NCBI GenBank assembly: GCA_023382535.1
Contig: JAHDWA010000009.1
Coordinates: 239,433 to 250,469, forward strand
From: Anaerolineae bacterium
Lineage (GTDB): Bacteria > Chloroflexota > Anaerolineae > 4572-78 > J111
Reading direction: 5' to 3'
Length of the DNA stretch: 11,037 nt
Positions 1-11,037 of this stretch are shown here, piece by piece. The first letter of the stretch is position 1, and every line of letters begins with the position of its first letter. A program made the translations under genes and the position numbers. Below the pieces are notes generated by a model that made no database searches, was not told where the DNA came from, and worked only from the letters and a program-made list of their open reading frames with translations.

Positions 1-54
1 CTGAACCCTCGCATTTTCCGTCAATTATCCAAACATTCTTACGAGGAGGTTAGA

Positions 55-1576
55 ATGCAAAAGAAAACATTTGTGATCAATGGAGTCCCCCAATCGGTTA
101 TTGTTGACCCGGAGCCACCTTAGGCGATGTGCTGCGCAAGCAGCTCATGCTGACCGGCACCAAAGTCTCCTGCAATGACGGCCATTGTGGGGCATGCTCG
201 GTCCTGGTGGACGGAAAGCTGACCCTGGCCTGCGTGACCAAGATCAAGAAGGTGGAAGATGGCGCTGCGATCACCACCATCGAAGGGGTGGGTACGCCCG
301 AAAAGCTCCATCCGCTGCAACTGGCTTTTGCCGTCCATGGGTAGCCCAATGCGGCTTCTGCACGCCCGGATTTATCATGTCGGCCAAGGCGCTGCTGGAT
401 GAGAAACCAAAACCCAGCCGCGAAGAGGTGCGGGACTGGTTCACCAAGCATCACAATGCCTGCCGCTGCACCGGCTATAAACCAATCGTTGATGCGGTCA
501 TGGATGCGGCCAGCGTCTTGCGCGGCGAAATGAGCGCCAAAGCTCTGGAATATCAACTGCCGGCGGATGGCCGCATCTGGGGTGGCAAATATCCGCGCCA
601 GAGCGCCGTCGGCAAAGTGACCGGCACGCTCGATTACGGCCAGGATTTGGGCCTCAAGATGCCGCCTGACACCCTGCGGCTGGCCCTGGTGCAGGCCAAA
701 GTCTCCCACGCCAACATCCTTTCAATTGACACCTCCGAAGTGGAAAAGATGCCGGGGGTTTACAAGGTTGTCACCCACAAGGATGTCAAAGGCAAGAACC
801 GCATCACCGGCCTGATCACCTTCCCCACCAACAAAGGCGACGGCTGGGACCGGCCTATTCTGTGCGATACCAAGGTCTTCCAGTATGGCGACGCCATCGC
901 CATTGTCTGCGCCGATACCGAGGCGAATGCCCGCGCCGCCGCCGACAAGGTCAAGGTCGAGCTGGAAGTCCTCCCGGCCTATATGAACGCTCCGGATGCG
1001 ATGGCCGACGACGCCATCGAAATCCATCCCAGCACACCTAATGTCTATTATGAGCAGGGCGTGGTTAAGGGGGAGGAAACCAAGCCATTGATAGCCTCGG
1101 CTCCCTATGTGGCGGAAGGCAGTTTTTTCCTGCAGGGCCAGCCTCACATGACCGTCGAGTCGGATGTCGGCTTTGCCTACTTTGACGACGAAGGCCGGCT
1201 GACCATCCACTCCAAGAGCATTGGCCTTTATCTGCACCTCTATATGATTGCCCCCGGCCTGGGCATCGAGCCGGAGAAACTGCGCATGGTCCTCAATCCG
1301 GCGGGCGGCACCTTTGGCTACAAATTCTGCCCGACGATGGAGGCGCTGCTGGGCGTGGCCTGTATGGCGACGGGCCGGCCGGTCTACCTGGAGTATGATT
1401 ACCAGCAGTATATGACTTACACCTGCAAGCGCTCGCCCTTCTTCGTGGACATGAAGCTGGCCGCCGATGAAAAGGGCAAACTGGTCGCCATGGAGACCGA
1501 TTGGATCGTGGACCACGGTCCCTACTCCGAATTTGCCGACCTGCTGACTCTGCGCGGAGCGCAGTTTATGGGCGCG
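55..1576 (+). pseudogene. mop: Molybdenum aldehyde oxidoreductase (Mop), frameshifted and truncated
   Basis: This is a xanthine-oxidase-family aldehyde oxidoreductase, which oxidises aldehydes to acids using molybdopterin and two [2Fe-2S] clusters. The ATG at 55 follows a strong GAGGAGG (43-49). Its own frame stops at 121; the frame resumes with one base missing near 113 (GAGCC where GAGGCC is expected) and shifts again near 339-341 (CATGGGTAGCC, one G short). Once both are repaired, all eight cluster cysteines fall at 40, 45, 48, 60, 100, 103, 137 and 139, the same numbering as recalled for D. gigas Mop. Homology runs through DHGPYSEF and LTLRGAQF and ends at the equivalent of residue 508. 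The region after that is absent; in D. gigas it holds Arg533, most molybdopterin contacts and the catalytic Glu869. The product cannot be an active Mop. The frameshifts could be sequencing errors; the truncation is a separate event. Confidence 0.88.
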
Positions 1577-2749
1577 CTGTGCAAACAGGCCCGCCAGACG
1601 ATGGTCGCTCAGAACCGCATGCCCCCCTCAGCGCACGATTTTTCCCTGCGGGATATGCAGTTCAGTCACAGCGACAAATTTACCCTGGCCCGCCACCAGC
1701 CTGGAACGGAGACGAGCGACTATCTCTTTTTCCCCGGCTGCCAGCTCAGCGCCTCGGCCCCGGAGCAGGTGGAGCAGGTCTACGCCTACTTGCGGGCCAG
1801 ACTGCCCGGCGCGGGGTTGATGCTGCGCTGCTGCGGGGCGCCGGCCGATTGGGCTGGCCGCACCGACCTGTTCCAGGCTAGTTTGGCCGAGTTTTCCACA
1901 TGGCATACCGGGATGGGCCGGCCCCGGGTCATCCTGGCCTGTTCAAGCTGTTACCAAATTTTCAAGACGAACCTGCCGGATGTAGAGATCGTTTCGCTGT
2001 GGCAGTTGTTCGAGCAGTTGGGACTGCCGGAGGGGGTCAACCGCGAAAATGGCAGGGTGGTGTCGGTCCACGATCCGTGCTCGACCCGCCAAGAGCGGCA
2101 GATGCACGAGAGCGTGCGCCGCGTGCTGACCCAATTAGGCTATCAGATTGAGGAACTGCCTTTGAACCGGGAGAAGACCACCTGTTGCAGCTATGGTGGG
2201 GTGATGTGGCTGGCTAACCCGGAACTGGCCCGCGAAGTGGTCGAACGGCGCATCGCCGCCAATCCGGCCGATTATGTGACCTACTGTGCCATGTGCCGCG
2301 ATTTCTTTGCCGCCCGCGGCAAGCGCACCCTGCACCTGCTCGATCTGCTTTTTGGCGGCAACCGGGAGGCGCGGGCGGCTCGCCGGGGGCCGGGCTATTC
2401 CCACAGGCATGAAAATCGGGCCAGGCTCAAACAGAAACTGCTCAAGGAGGTTTGGGGCGAAACGATGGATGGACAAGAAAGTTATGAAGCCATTAAACTG
2501 ATCATTTCTGCGGAAGTGCAGCAGCGCCTGGAAGACAGGTTGATTCTGGTCGAAGACATCCAGCGGGTGATCGAGTACGCCGAAAGAACCGGGCGTAAGC
2601 TCCACCAGCCCAAAACTGGGCACTTGCTGGCCCATCACCGGCCCACCAGTGTGACCTACTGGGTGGAATATTCGCCACAGGAGGACGCCTTTGTCGTCCA
2701 CAACGCCTACAGCCATCGCATGGAGATTGCCGAGGATGTGAAACCATGA
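1577..2749 (+). CDS. C-terminal part of pyridine nucleotide-disulfide oxidoreductase/dicluster-binding protein, fused in frame to truncated Mop
   Basis: This is the 3' portion of a redox protein with two CCG-type cysteine-rich domains, related to HdrB/HdrD and GlpC, which bind unusual Fe-S clusters. The first domain has FPGC (Cys codon 1739) and CCGAP (1829-1840). The second has DPCSTRQ, CCSYGG and YCAMC. A C-terminal tail follows with LEDRLILVEDIQRV and VTYWVEY, which I associate with the dicluster protein encoded beside mop in Desulfovibrio. The FAD/NAD domain and ferredoxin-like part expected upstream are missing. The open frame is continuous with mop, so a translated chimera is possible, for example from the ATG at 377 (about 790 residues). 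It ends in an ATGA overlap with the next gene, which suggests translational coupling. The family name is from memory; the CCG domains are directly visible. Confidence 0.82.
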   Translation: MCKQARQTMVAQNRMPPSAHDFSLRDMQFSHSDKFTLARHQPGTETSDYLFFPGCQLSASAPEQVEQVYAYLRARLPGAGLMLRCCGAPADWAGRTDLFQASLAEFSTWHTGMGRPRVILACSSCYQIFKTNLPDVEIVSLWQLFEQLGLPEGVNRENGRVVSVHDPCSTRQERQMHESVRRVLTQLGYQIEELPLNREKTTCCSYGGVMWLANPELAREVVERRIAANPADYVTYCAMCRDFFAARGKRTLHLLDLLFGGNREARAARRGPGYSHRHENRARLKQKLLKEVWGETMDGQESYEAIKLIISAEVQQRLEDRLILVEDIQRVIEYAERTGRKLHQPKTGHLLAHHRPTSVTYWVEYSPQEDAFVVHNAYSHRMEIAEDVKP

Positions 2750-2958
2750 GCGAAACGGAGAAGCAGGTCGAGCCGGTAGAGTGGCTCTGTGCTAACTGCA
2801 ATGTTCCCCTGAAAACCGGACAGGTCATGGCGGCCTACCTGGGCAATACCTACCCGGTGGATTTGCTGCGCTGCCCCAAGTGCGGGCTGGTCTTTGTGCC
2901 CGAAGAGTTAGCCTTGGGCAAAATGGCCGAGGTGGAAAAGACGTTGGAAGACAAGTAG
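2746..2958 (+). CDS. Small four-cysteine redox protein, DVU_1557-like
   Basis: This is a 70-residue protein with two CxxC pairs, Cys15/Cys18 (LCANC) and Cys43/Cys46 (CPKCG). The arrangement is typical of a rubredoxin-like or zinc-ribbon site binding one iron or zinc. It overlaps the stop of the preceding gene by four bases (ATGA), so the two are probably co-translated. Size, cysteine spacing and position behind the dicluster protein match the DVU_1557 family redox protein of Desulfovibrio-type Mop clusters. Its exact role is unknown; electron transfer or cofactor handling for the molybdenum enzyme is an inference. It looks intact and ends in a lysine/glutamate-rich helix. Confidence 0.8.
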   Translation: MSETEKQVEPVEWLCANCNVPLKTGQVMAAYLGNTYPVDLLRCPKCGLVFVPEELALGKMAEVEKTLEDK

Positions 2959-2959
2959 A

Positions 2960-2972
2960 GCGTGAGGCGTGA
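2960..2972 (+). repeat. Direct repeat GCGTGA x2 just after a stop codon
   Basis: GCGTGA occurs at 2960-2965 and 2967-2972, one base after the stop codon of the preceding gene. It resembles the left arm of the hairpin elements found after other genes in this window, but no complementary right arm is visible nearby. Confidence 0.4.
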
Positions 2973-3002
2973 AGACGGAAATTTTGTGTGGCTGCCGAAT
3001 AG

Positions 3003-3128
3003 GACGCTCAAGCCCTGGACGCAGCCGACCTCCCAGAACTGTTCTTGCCAACCGGAAAACGCCGCCGAGGGCGCGGCCAAGACCCGAAATTTTACGGCCA
3101 AATACTGGTCTTTGCCCAATACGATTGA
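3003..3128 (+). pseudogene. 3' fragment of an unidentified gene
   Basis: After an in-frame TAG at 3000 this frame is open for 41 codons to a TGA at 3126. It reads as plausible protein sequence, including LPELFLPTGKRRRGRG, PKFYGQ and ILVFAQY, whereas the other two frames here look like shadow translations rich in Arg, Pro and Ser. It has no start codon or ribosome binding site. It overlaps the beginning of the radical SAM remnant in another frame, so a deletion junction probably lies near 3100-3126. I do not recognise the family. In comparable clusters a gene or genes between the small redox protein and the radical SAM protein would be expected here. Confidence 0.35.
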
Positions 3129-3414
3129 GTTACAGCCGGCCCAGGGCGCTAGTTTAGGGGGATGGGATGAATTTCTGGCTCGCGCCCAGACCCACACCTT
3201 TTGCCTGTCGGGTATGGCCTTCCAGGATGCCTGGAACCTCGACCTGGAACGGCTGCGCGATTGTTGTATCCACACCGTCAGCCCCGATGGCAGGATTATC
3301 CCATTTTGCGCTTACAATTTGACTGATCAACACGGGCGCTCTTTATATCGAAGGAACACAGAGGCCACTGAAAAAGCACAGGGGTACGCGGAGAATTCTT
3401 CTAAACCTCTGTGA
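3106..3414 (+). pseudogene. trsS: C-terminal remnant of radical SAM protein, TrsS-like
   Basis: The frame carries LPNTIELQP, FCLSGMAFQDAWNLDLERL, CCIHTVSPDGR and IPFCAYNL followed by GRSLYR. This matches the conserved C-terminal end of radical SAM (seleno)proteins of the TrsS type that sit in Mop accessory clusters. The N-terminal radical SAM core with its CxxxCxxC motif is absent: the same frame runs upstream to a GTG at 2962, but that stretch does not look like radical SAM sequence. The last 20 or so codons read into the palindromic repeat that follows, which supplies the stop at 3412. The fragment cannot be a working enzyme. The radical SAM assignment is firm by motif recall; the TrsS subfamily is less certain. 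Confidence 0.68.
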
Positions 3415-3449
3415 CCCTCTGCGTTAGCTCTGTGACTCACTGCGTTCCC
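3353..3449 (+). repeat. Imperfect palindromic intergenic element (CACAGAGG / CCTCTGTG type)
   Basis: The left arm begins GGAACACAGAGGCCACTG and includes GCACAGGGG. The right arm contains CCTCTGTGACCCTCTGCG and CTCTGTGACTCACTGCGTTC, and its reverse complement aligns with the left arm with several mismatches and small gaps. The centre is around GGAGAATTCTTCT. The transcript could form a long imperfect hairpin. It directly follows the radical SAM remnant, provides that frame's stop codon, and ends about 16 bases before the CoA ligase. Similar CACAGAG-rich palindromes are common between genes in environmental bacterial genomes; no transposase is present. Confidence 0.65.
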
Positions 3450-3465
3450 CCTTATTCTCGGAGAA

Positions 3466-4797
3466 ATGGCACCACTTACCCCACTCGAACCCTGGATAGC
3501 CCGTAAAATAGGCTGCCCGGCTGAGCATCTCACTCGCGCCGATATCGGGGTGTATCAACTGCGGCAGTTGCAGGAAACATTACGCCTGGTCAGATCCAAA
3601 AGTCCCTTTTATCGGCGACACCTGGCCTCCGCGCCGGCGGAGCTTTCGTCGCTCGAAGCATTGGCCCAGTTCCCTTTCACCACCCCGGAAGATATTCGCC
3701 GTAACGCCCTGCAATTTGTGTGCGTCTCGCAGGATGATATTCAACGGGTCGTTACCCTCGATAGTTCGGGCACCACCGGCGAACCCAAACGCATCTATTT
3801 TACCAGGGAAGACCAGGAATTAACGCTAGACTTCTTTCATATCGGCATGTCTACTTTCACGGAGGCCGGAGACCGGGTGCTGATTCTGCTGCCGGGTGAA
3901 AGGCCGGGCAGCGTCGGCGATTTGCTGGCGGTGGCGCTGCCCCGGTTGGCGGCAGTGGGAATTAAGCACGGGCCGGTGCGGGACGCAGCATTGACCCTGG
4001 AGGTAATGGCTAAGGAAAAAGTGACCGGCCTGGTGGGACTGCCAACCCATGTACTGGCCCTGGCCCGACAATGGGAAACTAACGACAAAAATCCACCCTT
4101 GCAGCTCAAAAGTGTCCTGCTGACCGCCGACCATGTACCGGAGGCGATCAAGGCTGTGGTCGAACGGGCTTGGGGCGGCCGGGTCTACAACCACTATGGT
4201 ATGACCGAGACGGGTCTGGGCGGCGGGGTGGAATGTCAAGCCCGGCGAGGTTATCACCTGCGGGAAGCCGACTTGTATGTGGAGATTATCAATCCAGACT
4301 CAGGCCAGCCGGCAGCCGAGGGAGAGAGTGGCGAAATTGTCTTCACCACCCTGACCCGGCGCGGGATGTCCCTCATCCGCTACCGCACGGGCGACCTCAG
4401 CTATTTCATTCCCCATGGCTGTCCATGTGGCACAATTTTGAAAACCCTCGCCCGGGTCATAAGCCGGCTTAGCGGTTATGTAAGAATCGGTGCTGACAGT
4501 TATCTGACAATCGCTGATCTGGATGAAACCCTCTTCCCTATTGCTGGTCTGCTAAATTTTAGCGCCACTATTACGAACGAATCTGGCAAAGATTGTTTGC
4601 ACCTGGAAGTTAAAATAATTGAAGGCGTGGACTGCAATCCGGCTTCGACTATTCAGCAGGCGCTTAATACTATTCCGAGCATTCGCCAAGCCCGACAGAC
4701 AGACCAACTTGATCTTCTGTTAGGAGAATGTTCCTCCACCACACTATCAAACTTGGCGAAAAGAGTCATTCTTGACCACCGCAGCAGCCTCTCGTGA
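3466..4797 (+). CDS. AMP-dependent CoA ligase, DVU_1553-like (PaaK-related)
   Basis: This 443-residue ANL-superfamily adenylate-forming enzyme would activate a carboxylic acid with ATP to an acyl-AMP and then the CoA thioester. Visible motifs are the phosphate loop SSGTTGEPK (100-108), YGMTE (244-248), RTGD (307-310) and a CPCGT motif (319-323) that recalls phenylacetate-CoA ligases. The length suits the PaaK group. Start MAPLTPLEPWIARK looks natural, although the GGAG is only two bases from the ATG, so initiation may be weak. Homologues lie beside Mop in Desulfovibrio (DVU_1553 family), where a link to acids produced from aldehydes, or to cofactor maturation, is possible but unproven. The gene appears intact between damaged neighbours. 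Substrate is unknown. Confidence 0.85.
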   Translation: MAPLTPLEPWIARKIGCPAEHLTRADIGVYQLRQLQETLRLVRSKSPFYRRHLASAPAELSSLEALAQFPFTTPEDIRRNALQFVCVSQDDIQRVVTLDSSGTTGEPKRIYFTREDQELTLDFFHIGMSTFTEAGDRVLILLPGERPGSVGDLLAVALPRLAAVGIKHGPVRDAALTLEVMAKEKVTGLVGLPTHVLALARQWETNDKNPPLQLKSVLLTADHVPEAIKAVVERAWGGRVYNHYGMTETGLGGGVECQARRGYHLREADLYVEIINPDSGQPAAEGESGEIVFTTLTRRGMSLIRYRTGDLSYFIPHGCPCGTILKTLARVISRLSGYVRIGADSYLTIADLDETLFPIAGLLNFSATITNESGKDCLHLEVKIIEGVDCNPASTIQQALNTIPSIRQARQTDQLDLLLGECSSTTLSNLAKRVILDHRSSLS

Positions 4798-4800
4798 TTT

Positions 4801-4829
4801 TTGCCCTCCTGCAGCCCACTTAGTATAAT
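4801..4829 (+). promoter_or_regulatory. Putative sigma-70-type promoter
   Basis: TTGCCC at 4801-4806 and a perfect TATAAT at 4824-4829 are separated by 17 bases. It lies just after the CoA ligase stop and would transcribe the trmO remnant and the molbindin gene independently of the upstream genes. The -10 is perfect and the -35 matches four of six. Confidence 0.5.
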
Positions 4830-4891
4830 TTAATCCTCCCCATCATACACTTGAAGACAAAAATTCATCTCTGCATTAAAGTTGGTAGATT

Positions 4892-5053
4892 ATGGATAAA
4901 ATTTGCTACGCCCCTATTGGAGTGATCCGTTCTCCCTATCAAGAACCAGTCGGAATGCCGACTTTTGACGTGCGCGAAACAACTGATATTGGCTGGTTCC
5001 ATCAGAAAGTTGATTATGTCTTTCAAGTGCAAGCCGATCGGCGTTATAGCTGA
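4892..5053 (+). pseudogene. trmO: TsaA/TrmO-family methyltransferase with internal deletion
   Basis: This 53-codon frame starts with ICYAPIGVIRSPYQEPVGMP, the N-terminal signature of the TsaA/TrmO family of SAM-dependent methyltransferases that act on N6-threonylcarbamoyladenosine in tRNA. It then passes directly into TFDVRETTDIGWF, which belongs near the C-terminal end, and finishes QADRRYS before TGA. Full-length members are roughly 130-240 residues, so the central part is missing, including the region that would bind SAM. The reading frame is kept across the join near residues 23-24. No good ribosome binding site precedes the ATG. Members of this family occur near molybdenum-enzyme clusters, so it may belong to the same locus. 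It cannot be catalytically active. Confidence 0.72.
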
Positions 5054-5106
5054 AATTTCAATAATTGTTACTATTAAAATTTAGCGATGCTTGAGGAGGT
5101 GGTCCG

Positions 5107-5331
5107 ATGAAAATTAGTGCGCGTAATGTTCTTAAGGGGAAAGTCAAACAGCTTGAGCATGGTGCGGTCAATTCCGAGGTCGTGATTGAACTGCCCGGTG
5201 AGGTGGAAGTGGTCTCAATCATCACCAAACATTCTGCCGAAACGTTAGGGTTAGCCATTGGCATGGAGGTTTATGCGGTCATTAAGGCTTCTGACGTTAT
5301 GATAGGATTGCCGCACGATCCGAAGTCCTAG
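5107..5331 (+). CDS. Molbindin-type TOBE domain protein (molybdate binding)
   Basis: This 74-residue protein is a single TOBE/Mop domain, the molybdate-binding fold found alone in molbindins and in duplicate in ModE and ModC. Features are SARNVLKGKV at residues 4-13, the EVVIELPG strand (24-31), the ITKHSAETLGL segment (39-49) and KASDVMIGL near the end. Molbindins usually assemble as hexamers that store or buffer molybdate in the cytoplasm. The start is fixed by a strong AGGAGG (5094-5099) seven bases upstream. It is not to be confused with the aldehyde oxidoreductase also called Mop. Its position in the locus supports a molybdenum theme, and it appears intact. Confidence 0.9.
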   Translation: MKISARNVLKGKVKQLEHGAVNSEVVIELPGEVEVVSIITKHSAETLGLAIGMEVYAVIKASDVMIGLPHDPKS

Positions 5332-5340
5332 CATTCTGAT

Positions 5341-5553
5341 TTACTCACGAGTCCCAGATGAGATGTTACAGCCCTTGGCAGTCTCGCCGATCATGGTCTG
5401 GCCCACTTCGTCGTGAAGTTCCCTGGCCAATCGTTTTTGTTCTGGCTCCTGGGTTTTAAGGTGAGGCTGCATATTACGCAGGTGAAAGGTGATCACACTT
5501 GAATGTGTGGGACGGCAATCTGGTAACGGATTAAACAGGTGCCAAACCGGCAG
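5341..5553 (-). pseudogene. Remnant of a HisKA_3 sensor histidine kinase
   Basis: On the - strand a 70-codon open frame without a convincing start contains PEQKRLARELHDEVGQTM. This is the H-box of NarL/DegS-type (HisKA_3) histidine kinases, with the phosphoacceptor His at codon 5415-5413. Normal kinases continue with the rest of the dimerisation helix and an HATPase domain; here about 17 unrelated residues follow and then a TAA. Upstream, the sensor region is cut by a TAG at 5556-5554. It is therefore a double-ended fragment and not a working kinase. It lies convergent to the molbindin gene, only nine bases from its stop. Confidence 0.6.
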
Positions 5554-5640
5554 CTACCTCAACTCCAAGCGGAGCAATTCAAAAATGAACGTCAGTGAAA
5601 TGAACAAAAACGTTCTTGTAGCGCCATGCAAAATCGCGTT
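5554..5640. other. Short spacer with no recognised gene
   Basis: This AT-richer stretch separates the kinase remnant from the flavodoxin gene. The only structure seen is a weak GAACGT...ACGTTC inverted pair around 5586-5615. I see no terminator or coding signal. Confidence 0.3.
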
Positions 5641-6144
5641 CTATATTGATTCAATCTGGATAAGACTGGCCCAGGTGCGGATCACCAGCCAGTCGCGGTA
5701 GTCACCCACCGTCGCCTTGACCGACTTGATGATCATCTTTTCGCCAAAACTGAGCCTGTCAAGATCAATCTTACCGTGGAAAAGGATAACGTCCTTTGGT
5801 TTAATGGTCTCCCGAACAGCGGCCAAATCCTCGGGGAACGTCCACTCGCCGCCCATGATTTCGTTGGGATCGCCTTCGCCGGTAGGACCGCTGGAGAACA
5901 GCCAGACTGGGGAATTAGCCAGCACTTCCTGGTTAGAGCGTAAAAACTCAGCCGCCGCCTTCAGCCAGCCGCCCGCGTAAAGGGCGCTGCCGACGACAAA
6001 CCCGTCATATCCGGCCAGACTGTCCACTTCGTCTACCGGTTTGACTTCGACTTCATATTCGCGCTTGCGTAGTTCCTTGCCGATAACCTCGGCAATCTCA
6101 GCCGTCGAGCCATACTTGCTTGCATAAGCGACCAATAGTTTCAT
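5641..6144 (-). CDS. Flavodoxin-domain protein, HemG-like
   Basis: This 167-residue cytoplasmic flavodoxin-fold protein should bind FMN. The phosphate-binding loop is ASKYGSTAE (residues 8-16). It is followed by GYDGFVVGSALYAGGW and WLFSSGPTGEGDP, the pattern of menaquinone-dependent protoporphyrinogen oxidase (HemG) and related flavodoxin-like proteins. A longer frame begins at 6207, but the ATG at 6144 is preferred: the FMN loop then sits at the N-terminus and AAGGAGA lies in the proper place upstream. Role in haem synthesis is possible but not shown; many relatives are general flavodoxins. It lies downstream of the TPR gene on the same strand with a 113-base gap that contains its own possible promoter. 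Confidence 0.85.
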   Translation of the reverse strand: MKLLVAYASKYGSTAEIAEVIGKELRKREYEVEVKPVDEVDSLAGYDGFVVGSALYAGGWLKAAAEFLRSNQEVLANSPVWLFSSGPTGEGDPNEIMGGEWTFPEDLAAVRETIKPKDVILFHGKIDLDRLSFGEKMIIKSVKATVGDYRDWLVIRTWASLIQIESI

Positions 6145-6168
6145 CAAAATTCTCCTTTCATCGCGGGT

Positions 6169-6197
6169 ATTTTCCAGCCATCGCCGGTAATTGTCAA
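6169..6197 (-). promoter_or_regulatory. Putative promoter for the flavodoxin gene
   Basis: On the - strand TTGACA (6197-6192) is followed after 17 bases by GAAAAT (6174-6169), a perfect -35 with a four-of-six -10. It lies 25 bases before the start codon, leaving room for the AAGGAGA site. Confidence 0.4.
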
Positions 6198-6223
6198 AGG
6201 TGAGCAATCGGTTTAACTTGATT

Positions 6224-6240
6224 GTCTGAGCTAATCAGAC
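6224..6240. promoter_or_regulatory. Perfect dyad upstream of the flavodoxin promoter
   Basis: GTCTGA (6224-6229) and TCAGAC (6235-6240) form a perfect six-base inverted repeat with a five-base spacer. It lies between the TPR stop and the possible flavodoxin promoter. It lacks a T-run on the - strand, so an operator fits at least as well as a terminator. Confidence 0.3.
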
Positions 6241-6257
6241 CTTATTCTTTAACAACA

Positions 6258-7706
6258 TCAGGGAGAGGGACTATCCAATCTTTGCAGATCCTTCAACGCC
6301 CGGTCCCTAAAAGCCCCCGACGTATCCCAATCAATGACTCGTTGATACTCCTCCGCCGCTTCGGTTTTTCGTCCTGCCGCTTCTAGCTGCCGGGCTAAGT
6401 GATAGCGGGCGCTGGTCAGAGCAGGATTCAGGGCTAAGGCTTGCCGTAAGGCCGCCTCGCCGCTTTCCGGCGCGCCGGTGAGAAATTGCATCCAGCCGAG
6501 CAGATCATACGCCTCGGCATTGTTTTTGTCTGCCTCAGTAATCGCCCTGGCGGCGGGAATACCCGCTTCGGCCATGCGGTAGCCCCAATTGGCAAAAAAT
6601 TTGGCCTGTAGCAGCCGAAACTGGAGGTCCTGTTCCGATACCTGGACCGCTGCTTCGTACCAAAGTTCGGCGCTGGCCAGGTCCCCCCGCTGAGCTTTGG
6701 TTTCGGCCATTTCGACATAAAAAGCTGCATTCTGCGGGTCCAGGGTGATGGCCTGCTTGAAGGCTGCCTCGGCCGCCCGCAATGTCCCTTTTTGCCGCAG
6801 ATACAGCCCCTGAAAGTAGAGCGGCCAGGCCGAGTCGGGATCTGCCTGCTGAGCTTGGCGAAAGAGTTCGAGCGCTGGCTGGCCGGCCTGGGCCTGGGCG
6901 TAGCCCAAAAAAGCCATGGTTTCGGCATCCACCGTCTCGCCTTGTTTTTCTTTGGCAACAGTCAGGGCGTGAATCGCCAGCGGCCATAACTGGGCCTGGG
7001 CGAGGGCGATGCCGGTCGCTTTGGCTGCCTCTGCCTGGCGTGACCCGGTATTGAAAGGCTTTAAAGCCGCCAACAGGTAATCACGCCGCTCCACAAGCCC
7101 GCTCTCTGGAGAGGAAGTGATGGATTGCAAATAGTCTTGCGCCGCTGCTACATCAGCCGGCGCTTCCAACGCTGCCAGAAACCACAGCGCCTCCGGGTCG
7201 GGCTGTTGGCGCTGCTGTTCCAGGAACGCCTTTTTTGCCGCCTCAAACTCGAATTTGGCCAGGTAGGTCCGGCCCAGGCCGGTAAATACCCCGGGCAGGT
7301 GCGGATTGGCTGCCGTCGCCTTTTGCCAAAATGTGACGGCTTCATCCAGGCGGCCTTGCCCGTAAAGGGTTTCCGCCAGCCCGGCCAGGGCCAGGGTGTT
7401 CTGCGGTTCGCGGGCCAAAGCCCGGTTAAAAGCATCTTCGGCCAGCAGCCAGCGCTGTTGGACTGCGTAAATCTGGCCGATTTTGAGCAGGGGTAAAGGA
7501 TTAGCGGGGTAAGCCTGGGCCACCTCTTCCAGCACGGCAATAGCCTCGCCGTAGCGCCGCTCGGCGATTAAAGGCTCCGCGCGCATCATAAAATTGGCGG
7601 GCGGGGCGGGTTGAGGTTTTGGCACGCACGCCAGCCCGGCCAGCAGCCAAAAAATAGTTAACCCTGCCCAAATCTTTTGCGTTAAAATCCAGTTGCTGCT
7701 AAACAT
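6258..7706 (-). CDS. Exported TPR-repeat protein, probable lipoprotein
   Basis: This 482-residue protein has a hydrophobic N-terminal segment (about residues 12-26) ending LLAGLAC with Cys27, followed by a Pro-rich linker. The cysteine suggests a lipoprotein, but the -3 position is Gly where lipoboxes normally have Leu, so ordinary signal cleavage or a membrane anchor remains possible. TPR helices fill the rest, with clear repeats near residues 43-140, 290-350 and 405-470 (for example AEAAFKQAITLDPQN). It is probably a scaffold on the outer face of the membrane; no partner is evident. A TTG at 7727 would lengthen it by seven residues but overlaps the -10 box, so the ATG at 7706 is chosen. No ribosome binding site precedes it. 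Confidence 0.85.
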   Translation of the reverse strand: MFSSNWILTQKIWAGLTIFWLLAGLACVPKPQPAPPANFMMRAEPLIAERRYGEAIAVLEEVAQAYPANPLPLLKIGQIYAVQQRWLLAEDAFNRALAREPQNTLALAGLAETLYGQGRLDEAVTFWQKATAANPHLPGVFTGLGRTYLAKFEFEAAKKAFLEQQRQQPDPEALWFLAALEAPADVAAAQDYLQSITSSPESGLVERRDYLLAALKPFNTGSRQAEAAKATGIALAQAQLWPLAIHALTVAKEKQGETVDAETMAFLGYAQAQAGQPALELFRQAQQADPDSAWPLYFQGLYLRQKGTLRAAEAAFKQAITLDPQNAAFYVEMAETKAQRGDLASAELWYEAAVQVSEQDLQFRLLQAKFFANWGYRMAEAGIPAARAITEADKNNAEAYDLLGWMQFLTGAPESGEAALRQALALNPALTSARYHLARQLEAAGRKTEAAEEYQRVIDWDTSGAFRDRALKDLQRLDSPSP

Positions 7707-7715
7707 TTGCTGGGT

Positions 7716-7721
7716 ATTATA
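7716..7721 (-). promoter_or_regulatory. -10 box for the TPR gene (possible leaderless start)
   Basis: A perfect TATAAT on the - strand lies nine bases before the ATG at 7706, so transcription would begin about two to four bases before the start codon. No convincing -35 was found. This decides against the TTG start at 7727. Confidence 0.5.
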
Positions 7722-7800
7722 ACACAAAATGAACAGCGACAGCTAAAGCCTTTGAACCTGAAACGCACGATCGTTCCCTCTCGCCCCTTTAACCCTGGCG

Positions 7801-7809
7801 TGGTATAAT
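7801..7809 (+). promoter_or_regulatory. Extended -10 promoter of the acyl-CoA dehydrogenase/ETF genes
   Basis: TGGTATAAT is an extended -10 (TGn plus perfect TATAAT). No good -35 is visible at 17 bases, which is acceptable for an extended -10. The start codon at 7867 is about 50 bases downstream of the expected start site. Confidence 0.6.
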
Positions 7810-7866
7810 TGCCCGGCAGCCGGATTAAATTTTTAAACAGCGAATTTAGATGGAGGGGAGTCTATT

Positions 7867-9075
7867 ATGGATTTTGAACTCAATGAAGAGCACCGAATGA
7901 TCGAGCAGATGGTCTACGACTTTGCCCGCAAAGAAATTTTGCCGATTATCAAGCAGCATGATCGAGACCATTGTTACCCTCACCAGTTGCTGCCCAAGCT
8001 GGCCGAGCAGGGTTTTATGGGCGTCTGCCTGCCGGTACGCTATGGGGGAGCCGGCATGGATTATATCTCCCTGGGAATTGTTTCCGAAGGGTTGGAGTGG
8101 GCCGACTCCTCGGTCCGGGAGACGATTGCCGTTCACCTGGGCTTACACGCCCTGCCCATTTTTCAGTGGGGCACGGAAGAACAAAAGCGCCAATTTCTGC
8201 CGCCGCTGGCGACCGGTCAGAAAGTGGCCTGTTTTGGTTTAACCGAACCCGGCGCTGGCTCCGATGTGGCCGGTCTAGCCAGCCGCGCCCGCAAAGAGGG
8301 CGATCACTATCTTCTGAGTGGTGAAAAAATGTGGATCACCCTGGCCGACGTCGCTGACCAGATGCTTGTTTTTGCCAAAACCGATCCTGCCAAAGGTGCG
8401 AACGGCATCACCGCCTTTATTGTAGAGCGCGGCTGGCCGGGATTGACGACCGGTACTATCGAAGGTAAAATGGGAGTTCACGCCAGCAACACCGGCTGGA
8501 TCAACATGGCCGACGTGCCCGTGCCCGCCAGCCATCGCCTGGGCGCAGAGGGCGAAGGCTTTAAAATTGCCATGAGCTGCCTGGATAACGCTCGTTACAC
8601 GGTCGCGGCCGGAGCAGTCGGCTTGATGAAAGCCTGCCTGCAAGAGTCGGTCAAATATGCCCATGAGCGCAAAACCTTCGGCCAGCCCATCGCCGAGTAC
8701 CAGCTTGTCCAACAAATGATCGCTTTTATGCAGCAGCGCATTGATATGGGCGAACTGCTGGTGCGTAAGGTCGGCTGGCTCAAAAACAAAGGCATTCGCA
8801 ACACCCGCGAAACCAGCATGGCCAAGTGGTTCTGCACCGATGCGGCCTTTGCCACCGCCAGCGATGCCGTGCAAATTCACGGCGCTTACGGCTATTCCGA
8901 CGAGTACAACGTCGAGCGCCACCTGCGCAACAGCAAGAGTGCGGTCATTTACGAAGGCACCAGCCAGATTCATCAATTGATGCAGGCCGGCTACGTTCTT
9001 GGCTTCCGCCAGGACAAGCCGCTGCGCTGCGAACTGCCGGCCTACGATCTTGAATATTGGCAAGCAGAACAGTAG
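7867..9075 (+). CDS. Acyl-CoA dehydrogenase
   Basis: This 402-residue FAD-dependent acyl-CoA dehydrogenase would introduce a 2,3-double bond into an acyl-CoA and pass electrons to ETF. The family signature [12 protein letters not shown] starts at residue 122, a second signature [19 protein letters not shown] at 336, and the YEGTSQIH segment places the likely catalytic base at Glu363, equivalent to Glu376 of medium-chain enzymes. Length is slightly above the usual 380 because of a C-terminal extension. The start follows GGAGGGGAG (7852-7860). The two ETF subunits follow directly. Substrate chain length or branching cannot be told from the sequence. Confidence 0.95.
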
Positions 9076-9123
9076 ACGGTAATGGGTAGACAGTAGAAAA
9101 GAATATCCCCATCTACCGTCTAC
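9072..9123 (+). repeat. Palindromic element between acyl-CoA dehydrogenase and etfB
   Basis: GTAGACGGTA (9072-9081) pairs perfectly with TACCGTCTAC (9114-9123). ATGGG (9082-9086) extends the stem against CCCAT (9108-9112) with one bulged C. The left arm also holds a direct repeat of GTAGAC (9072 and 9086). The element overlaps the dehydrogenase stop codon. No T-run follows, so it is unlikely to be a strong terminator. Confidence 0.75.
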
Positions 9124-9148
9124 CTAAATTAAAAGTGAAGGAAAAGGC

Positions 9149-9943
9149 ATGAACATCATAACATTAATCAAACAAGTTCCTGATACGGCTCAACTTTCCA
9201 GTACGGTGGATGGCCTTAAGCTGATGAGTGAGGGCGGCGCCAGAATTGTCAACCCCTGGGACGAGTACTGCCTGGAAGCCGGGATTCAGTTAAAGGAAAC
9301 CCACGGCGGCAAAGTGACGGTGCTGTCGCTGGGCAAGCCGGATGCGGTCGAGGCATTGAAACGGGGCATTGCCATGGGCGCCGATGAGGCTATCCTGATC
9401 TCTGATCCGGCCCTGGAAGGGAGCGACAGCCTGGCTACGGCTCGCGCCCTGGTGGCGGCGATCAAAAAAATCGGCCCGTTTGATCTGATCGTGGCCGGCC
9501 GCTCGGCCATTGACGGCAATATGGCGGCAACGGCGGTGCAGGTAGCGGCGCTGCTGGATGTGCCGCAGTTGTCCTATATCGCCGCGCTTAAGGCGGTGGA
9601 TCCGGCGGCGCAAACAATCACGGCGGTGCGGCTGATGGAAAACGGCCGTGAGACCATCACCAGCAAGCTGCCGGCGGTCATCAGTGTGGTCAAAGAGATC
9701 AACGAGCCGCGTTATCCCAGCTTTATGGGTATTCGCAAGGCAGCCAAAGCGACCATTCCTACCTGGAGCCTGGCCGATCTGGGTCTGTCCGCCGATCAAG
9801 TGGGCCAGGCCGGGTCTCATGTCAGTTGGCCGCAGGTCAGCCTGCCGCCCACCCGCGAAGGAGGGGCTGAAATCATCAGCGGCTCCCCGGCGGAAGCGGC
9901 CCAGATCCTGGCCGATAGACTGGCCGCCGAAAAAGTGATATAA
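9149..9943 (+). CDS. etfB: Electron transfer flavoprotein beta subunit
   Basis: This 264-residue EtfB is the nucleotide-binding partner of EtfA; together they carry electrons from acyl-CoA dehydrogenases to the quinone pool or another acceptor. It begins MNIITLIKQVPDT, typical of the family, and contains NPWDEYCLEAGIQL and, starting at residue 182, KEINEPRYPSFMGIRKA, the best EtfB signature. The AIDG segment ends in Asn124 where many homologues have Asp, a modest difference near the nucleotide site. A Shine-Dalgarno-like AAGGA (9138-9142) supports the start. The hairpin elements before and after it sit in otherwise operon-like gaps of 73 and 97 bases. Confidence 0.95.
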   Translation: MNIITLIKQVPDTAQLSSTVDGLKLMSEGGARIVNPWDEYCLEAGIQLKETHGGKVTVLSLGKPDAVEALKRGIAMGADEAILISDPALEGSDSLATARALVAAIKKIGPFDLIVAGRSAIDGNMAATAVQVAALLDVPQLSYIAALKAVDPAAQTITAVRLMENGRETITSKLPAVISVVKEINEPRYPSFMGIRKAAKATIPTWSLADLGLSADQVGQAGSHVSWPQVSLPPTREGGAEIISGSPAEAAQILADRLAAEKVI

Positions 9944-9944
9944 A

Positions 9945-9993
9945 AAGTAGCAGAGTAGCAGGCTTGCAAAAAACAAATTGCTACCTGCTACTT
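9945..9993 (+). repeat. Palindromic element between etfB and etfA
   Basis: AAGTAGCAG (9945-9953) and GTAGCA (9955-9960) pair with the right arm at 9979-9993, giving 15 base pairs with one bulged A and an 18-base loop. The left arm is itself a tandem repeat of GTAGCAG. It begins one base after the etfB stop codon. The etfA frame extends upstream through it, but that extension is not used. Confidence 0.75.
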
Positions 9994-10040
9994 GCCACCT
10001 TGTTACCATTTACTTTACCCCATCACAAGTTGAGGTTAAC

Positions 10041-11030
10041 ATGTCAAACGACATCTTTGTGTGGATAGAACAGGTCAATGGCCAGCCCGACTCGATTTCC
10101 TGGGAAACACTGGGCGCGGCGCGTAAGATCGCCGGGAATTTGGGCGGAAAGGTAGCGGCGGTTGTGCTGGGCGAGAGCACCGGCGACCTGCCGCAGCAGG
10201 CGTTTCAATACGGCGCGGACACTGTCTTTGTAGCCGATGATGCGACCTTGAAGCACTTTCGGCTGGAACCCTACGGCGCGCTGCTGGTCAGGCTGGCCCA
10301 AGAGCAGCAGCCGGCGGCAATTTTGCTGGGGGCCAGCAATGCCGGCCTGGAATTGTCGGCCTATGTGGCGGCCAAATTGGGGGTGGGCCTGGCCGCCGAT
10401 GGGATTGATTTGAGCGTTGAGGGGGATTCGCTGCAAGTGACCCGCCCGGTTTTGGTCGGCAATGTCCTGGCCAAAGTCGTCTTCGGCCCGGCTCGACCGC
10501 AAATAGCGAGCTTGCGCCGCCGGGTCTTTCCTGTGCCGGCCCCGGATGCCAGCCGTTCCGGCGAAATTATCAAGTTTGCCCCGGTGTTGGCCGAAGCGGA
10601 AATTGCTACTAAAGTCGAAGGGATTGAAGCGGCGGCCAGCCAGGTCAGCCTGACCGACGCCAAAATTATCGTTTCCGGGGGGCGCGGTGTGGGCGGCCCC
10701 GAAGGCTTCGCCCCGGTCAAGGCGCTGGCCGAAGCCCTGGGCGGCGCGATGGGAGCCAGCCGGGCCGCCGTGGACGCCGGTTGGGTGCCTTATGCCCATC
10801 AGGTAGGACAAACTGGCAAGACGGTCCAGCCCGATCTTTACATCGCTTGCGGCATCTCCGGCGCCATCCAGCATCTGGCCGGGATGAAAACCTCCAAGCT
10901 GATTGTGGCAGTTAACAAAGACGCGGAAGCGCCTATCTTTAAGTACGCCCATTACGGCATTGTGGGCGACCTGTTCCAATATGTGCCCGCGCTGGCTGAG
11001 GAGTTCAAAAAGCGTTTGGGCAAAAGTTAA
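10041..11030 (+). CDS. etfA: Electron transfer flavoprotein alpha subunit
   Basis: This 329-residue EtfA has the family's two-part layout. The N-terminal alpha/beta domain runs to about residue 195. The C-terminal FAD domain contains [12 protein letters not shown] from 212, [19 protein letters not shown] and [15 protein letters not shown] from 267, the EtfA signature. It forms the ETF heterodimer with the upstream etfB. The frame opens at 9978, but that part is the intergenic hairpin; the ATG at 10041 with GAGG five bases upstream gives the usual N-terminus ([11 protein letters not shown]). The gene ends seven bases before the window edge, so any following ETF:quinone oxidoreductase gene is out of view. 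Confidence 0.95.
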
Positions 11031-11037
11031 AAAATTA

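Follow-up and report, generated by a model that had tools for sequence, protein, structure and literature searches.

The window analyzed here, an 11,037-nucleotide stretch of DNA from an Anaerolineae bacterium, carries an open reading frame (ORF; 185–2749, forward strand) that runs from a truncated Mop-type aldehyde oxidoreductase into the interior of the redox protein normally encoded next to it. The question raised by this locus is whether the ORF encodes a new chimeric redox protein, whether it is an artifact of assembly, or whether it is a remnant of genes that are being lost. Our analysis makes it highly probable that the ORF belongs to a molybdenum aldehyde-oxidoreductase (mop–dicluster–trs) cluster in decay, in which the frame was kept by chance after a deletion. 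A multi-gene molybdenum enzyme cluster has apparently been caught midway through its loss, and in protein collections an accidental in-frame deletion can be mistaken for a chimeric redox protein made by design, the catalogued protein P0001 (see below) being an example. Apart from these points, the locus is a case of ordinary gene decay.

The Fusion Reading Frame and the Position of the Join

The ORF stays open over 854 codons, with no internal stop. Two NCBIfam profiles divide it between them: NF045668 (molybdopterin aldehyde oxidoreductase) matches residues 53–465 with its positions 96–508 of 905, and NF045663 (pyridine nucleotide-disulfide oxidoreductase/dicluster-binding protein) matches residues 462–850 with its positions 371–759 of 759. 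Because the two profile matches overlap at the codons for MGAL, the join was placed at 1568–1579; this confirms to within a few codons the original prediction, according to which Mop homology ends in mid-domain at the equivalent of D. gigas residue 508 (position 1576). The predicted in-frame continuation into the interior of the neighboring dicluster protein is borne out by the second profile match.

The Mop part can be compared directly with the aldehyde oxidoreductase (MOP) of D. gigas (PDB 1sij/1vlb; NF045668). The best PDB match of the ORF is 1sij, with which residues 54–464 align without a gap at residues 98–508; the difference is that the window has lost the remainder of the molybdenum-binding part by deletion, and its first [2Fe-2S] domain lies out of frame. 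With 773.5 bits, the Mop part scores below the curated NF045668 cut-off of 1100 and does not reach a full-length match. The molybdenum-cofactor domain is incomplete (MoCoBD_1 positions 1–185 of 244), a second molybdenum domain is absent among the four families listed for the ORF in the family search, and the catalytic glutamate of D. gigas MOP presumably falls within the lost part of mop. The dicluster half scores 592 bits, above the NF045663 cut-off of 530. Like the dicluster-binding protein encoded near mop, it has the C-terminal 389 of 759 model positions; unlike that protein, it is without model positions 1–370, which include the nucleotide-binding part. The cysteine-rich stretch that precedes the join position in the related protein P0002, as read by eye, is also lost.

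Table 1. Features of the mop cluster remnant and adjacent genes in the window.
Feature	Position	Strand	Evidence
Native mop start, ATG, behind GAGGAGGT ribosome-binding-like sequence; frame ends at TAG (121–123) after 22 codons	55..123	+	Translation; alignment
First [2Fe-2S] domain of Mop, second frame, up to TAG 342–344	147..344	+	Translation; alignment; P0241
Mop remainder: second [2Fe-2S] domain, a/b hammerhead, part of molybdenum-cofactor domain	344..1576	+	D. gigas residues 98–508 equivalent
Join, codons MGAL; ATGGGCGC(G), a short direct repeat possibly underlying the deletion	1568..1579	+	Overlapping profile matches; comparable sequence at the two sites in some relatives
C-terminal half of NF045663 dicluster-binding flavoprotein, two CCG stretches, model 371–759	1568..2749	+	Profile match; 83% identity to P0002 over 392 aa
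DVU_1557-family small redox protein, apparently intact	2746..2958	+	NF045645, 100.9 bits vs. cut-off 60
trsS remnant, radical SAM protein TrsS reduced to its C-terminal 124 positions	2962..3414	+	NF045646 positions 318–441/441
DVU_1553-family AMP-dependent ligase, apparently intact	3466..4797	+	NF045666, 467.6 bits vs. cut-off 300, full model length
Probable trmO remnant lacking ~105 internal codons (in-frame deletion)	4892..5053	+	Two-part match to trmO of G330 (L069)
Small molybdenum-pterin binding (TOBE/Mop-domain) protein, apparently intact	5107..5331	+	TIGR00638, 85.4 bits; PF03459

Gene Order in Relatives and the Extent of the Loss

A scan of genome contigs provided 44 loci with a relative, about half of them from Chloroflexota by title and the rest mainly from Desulfovibrio and Sulfurospirillum. 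The mop and dicluster halves were both found in 38 of the 44, always apart from each other, and on one strand in 37 of these. Only mop was found within the fetched stretch in the other six (L015, L016, L024, L030, L042, and L043). The usual order in relatives is mop, the dicluster gene, the DVU_1557-family gene, a methyltransferase-like gene (inspected by eye in six relatives only), trsS and the AMP ligase. In Longilinea arvoryzae (L013, 4055–5233 and 7001–8236), the dicluster gene lies on the strand opposite to mop, unlike in the 37 other loci with both.

Measured in 35 of the 37 same-strand loci (two were left out by a script filter), the stretch absent from the window is 2362–4491 bases long, with a median of 2535. 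Of this, mop accounts for about 1.2 kb and the dicluster gene for about 1.1 kb, the remainder being the DNA between them. The loss of about 1.2 kb of mop together with the 5′ part of the next gene, as originally proposed, thus agrees with the distances in relatives.

A Second Allele With the Same Join

Given several broken genes within 5.1 kb, an assembly or binning error was considered seriously: the window would then join parts of two intact genes that are separate in the real genome. Such an error would fit the first 5.1 kb, where several truncations occur and two single bases are lost, and it would also fit the result that no DNA match spans the join in the 396 genomes of the class of G001 (two candidate places scored per genome among the matches shown) or in the 24 genomes of the family of G330. 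Against it stands the result of a protein search with residues 410–540 of the fusion (the 131-residue junction region), which matched 2228 proteins, the best 120 being listed. P0001 is the sole match among these 120 that covers the whole junction region, at 96%, and the other 119 cover at most 63% of it. This protein is 98% identical to that of the window over 773 amino acids and has the same junction, with 14 substitutions besides the first residue; its cluster (3 members, 11 contigs, the longest of 32,018 bases) comes from other assemblies. The trsS remnant likewise has a twin, P0121 (142 amino acids, 99% identity), from a cluster of 3 members and 23 contigs in other assemblies. The longest contig of that cluster also measures 32,018 bases, and from this equal length we infer that P0001 and P0121 share one contig. 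For both clusters the sequences compared were the representatives, P0001 and P0121. The collections marked lgn are, we assume, Logan assemblies, made mostly from short reads.

Because two alleles carry the same deletions, at the junction in P0001 and at the trsS truncation in P0121, the assembly error that the original prediction had offered as an alternative is very unlikely. In addition, the join carries a repeat of no more than about 10 bases, by our reasoning too short to expect assembly collapse, and the five ORFs downstream are unbroken. The search for the same fusion elsewhere, proposed earlier as a check, thus yielded a second allele with the same junction and no example in the class and family genomes. 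A limited search of the literature at the level of titles and the beginnings of abstracts, in which the two families were not both named, found no fusion of this kind.

Frame Breaks at the Start of mop

Aligned with six intact relatives, the window lacks one base at about 112–117 and another at about 344. Because of these two single-base losses, the mop start codon, the first [2Fe-2S] domain, and the rest of mop lie in three frames, and the two [2Fe-2S] domains do not share one. Both losses, upstream of the join, were absent from the original prediction. A 65-amino-acid piece that ends exactly at the second break is catalogued as P0241 (100% identity, 2 members, 3 contigs); its longest contig, of 1616 bases, is not the one of 32,018. 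As independent evidence for the break it is weak, because the window itself is marked as a source of the cluster. The first residue of P0001 corresponds to codon 82 (GTG 428) of the ORF; this start agrees with an upstream frame break in the P0001 contigs, which it suggests without proving.

The two breaks could also be sequencing errors, in which case translation from ATG 55 would run into the fusion, a situation that would still be compatible with a broken fusion gene. Both losses are of single bases at or beside runs of G, which favors this explanation. We nevertheless regard it as unlikely: the five genes from 5.6 kb on are without a frame break, P0001 starts at codon 82 and not at the native start, and the piece ending at the second break recurs in three contigs, though in a cluster that includes the window's own.

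Other Genes of the Window

Positions 1–5331 of the window hold the mop cluster remnant and a few further genes. Downstream lie a flavodoxin-like gene, a TPR gene, an acyl-CoA dehydrogenase gene, and two electron-transfer flavoprotein genes, and these five, from 5.6 kb on, are unbroken ORFs.

Only the C-terminal end of trsS is left (Table 1), and the methyltransferase-like gene that precedes it in relatives is also missing from the window. In the six relatives inspected, the DVU_1557-family gene is separated from the point that matches the trsS remnant by 2.1–2.4 kb, which hold a frame of 224–267 amino acids and the rest of trsS; we take this frame to be methyltransferase-like. The remnant lies 1.4 kb downstream of the join and recurs as P0121 though the radical SAM core is gone. 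TrsS (NF045646) is listed as a radical SAM selenoprotein in PMC13188914.

A further ORF, of 53 amino acids, is probably made of the two ends of trmO joined by another in-frame deletion, trmO being at most a putative member of the mop cluster. Residues 4–23 (70%, E 2e-8) and 22–53 (31%, E 6e-4) match ends of the trmO gene in L069 that lie about 315 bases apart. The two-part match was obtained in one of the six loci with trmO matches, namely L069, and in none of the G310 and G285 loci. Pfam and PDB sequence searches did not recognize the remnant; the NCBIfam match, to residues 3–24, was weak (E 0.13).

Although the 854-codon frame is open, the dicluster half exceeds its family cut-off, and three other genes look full length, the 5.1-kb stretch contains more than one disabling change: besides the two frame breaks, there are the deletions in mop/dicluster and in trsS and, probably, that in trmO.

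Constraint Between the Two Alleles

If the fusion were a working protein, it would be a chimeric electron-transfer protein made from an internal start (e.g., GTG 428), comprising the CCG domain and the second of Mop's [2Fe-2S] domains but no molybdenum site. The frame is kept for 854 codons, also in the second allele, and P0001 starts at the codon equal to GTG 428, both of which could be expected of such a protein. The substitutions that separate the two alleles bear on this possibility. The window and P0001 were aligned with 29 intact mop homologues (at least 70% identity, near full coverage) and with 86 dicluster homologues (at least 62% identity) from the listed proteins of the junction search; weaker or shorter matches and, for mop, duplicates were dropped before invariant columns were counted.

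In the mop part, three of the five differences between the window and P0001 fall on columns invariant in all 29 homologues, the new residue always being that of the window. In the dicluster part, two of nine differences are at columns without variation among the 86 homologues, the new residue being that of the window in one case and that of P0001 in the other. When intact homologues are compared with each other, 2.6% (mop, 406 pairs) and 0.4% (dicluster, 3655 pairs) of the differences affect columns on which all the others agree, whereas unconstrained change predicts about 40 and 18%, respectively. At the intact-pair rates the observed numbers have P = 1.6e-4 (mop) and 5e-4 (dicluster), values that are based on 14 differences in all and on non-independent intact pairs; with the most extreme intact pair as reference, P = 0.010 and 0.067. 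The window departs from 8 and P0001 from 5 of the 163 invariant mop columns, compared with 0 to 5 in the 29 homologues (5 being reached by two of them). In the dicluster part, both alleles depart from one of 69 invariant columns, which is usual (0 to 2 in homologues). Within the limits of small numbers and non-independent pairs, the differences between the alleles point to decay.

A real chimeric electron-transfer protein is therefore highly improbable in our judgment: besides the substitutions on invariant columns, the molybdenum domain is cut off after position 185 of 244, the first [2Fe-2S] domain and the native start are out of frame, the cysteine-rich stretch before the join in P0002 is lost, and the architecture occurs in one of the 120 listed matches (of 2228). 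The chimeric protein with the Mop [2Fe-2S] clusters envisaged in the original prediction is unsupported, with its first domain out of frame and the native start followed by a stop after 22 codons; the broken trsS and probably broken trmO nearby, as well as the unconstrained appearance of the allele differences, also oppose it. Also highly improbable would be a new expressed protein, present in at least two alleles and starting near GTG 428, that combines a single Mop [2Fe-2S] domain, an incomplete molybdenum-domain scaffold, and a CCG (heterodisulfide-reductase-like) redox domain. Overall, little speaks in favor of a working new redox chimera.

Proposed Course of the Decay

We propose that the cluster is being lost by deletions in an Anaerolineae-like bacterium or lineage. 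A deletion of about 2.5 kb, perhaps between ATGGGCGC-like short repeats in mop and the dicluster gene, would have joined the two genes, the reading frame being preserved across the join by chance. A separate deletion would have taken the radical-SAM core of trsS and the gene before it, another one probably the middle of trmO, and two single-base losses would have cut the mop start codon off from the rest of the gene. Any order of these events is tentative, and the ORF presumably yields no functional protein. Of the earlier interpretation, the anatomy stands (a truncated Mop joined by an in-frame deletion to the C-terminal half of the dicluster protein); the reading as a decaying cluster was missing from it.

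As to the mechanism, the mop and dicluster homologies share the codons for MGA at the join. The mop site resembles ATGGGCGCGGGC in some relatives and the dicluster site GATATGGGCGCG in some, and in an ancestor the two sites may have carried a shared repeat 8 to 10 bases long. A run of at least six shared bases at the join register occurs in 4 of 35 single relatives, compared with 0.8% at random places, and the median microhomology at the join in the 35 relatives is 3 bases vs. 2 at random places. A deletion by slippage between short repeats is thus plausible, the microhomology being modest.

Bacterial pseudogenes can arise by deletion between neighboring genes. The locus resembles such pseudogenes in its accidental fusion, its frame breaks, the presence of more than one deletion in the stretch, and the lack of an orthologue in the nearest genomes. 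It differs in that the join is in frame, so that the product has been catalogued as one long predicted protein (P0001).

Nearest Genomes

Among the 396 class-level genomes, G310 (90%) and G285 (81%) come nearest to the window in the acyl-CoA dehydrogenase and flavoprotein genes. G310 is collinear with the window over 5646–11037 and then diverges, and G285 matches from 7866 on. Nothing in positions 1–5645 of the window was matched in the compared stretch of G310 (L063). The acyl-CoA dehydrogenase DNA had no match in five genomes of the genus of G330, an uninformative result.

A search with the fusion protein showed no mop or dicluster orthologue in G310 or G285. The best long matches to the mop half have 34% (G310) and 33–36% (G285) identity, short [2Fe-2S] pieces of about 70 residues reach 53–54%, and the dicluster half is matched at only 28–29%, over parts of its length. 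Judging by these identities, the matches are other members of large families and not orthologues. The mop cluster would have been either lost in G310 and G285 or gained in the lineage of the window.

In G310 (L063, position 13126), similarity to the window sets in at 5646, where the flavodoxin-like gene has its 3′ end. The stretch separating the acyl-CoA dehydrogenase gene from the flavoprotein genes is matched on both sides in G310, with the middle unmatched. Short intergenic inverted repeats occur in the window at 3352–3418, 9072–9124, and 9941–10005.
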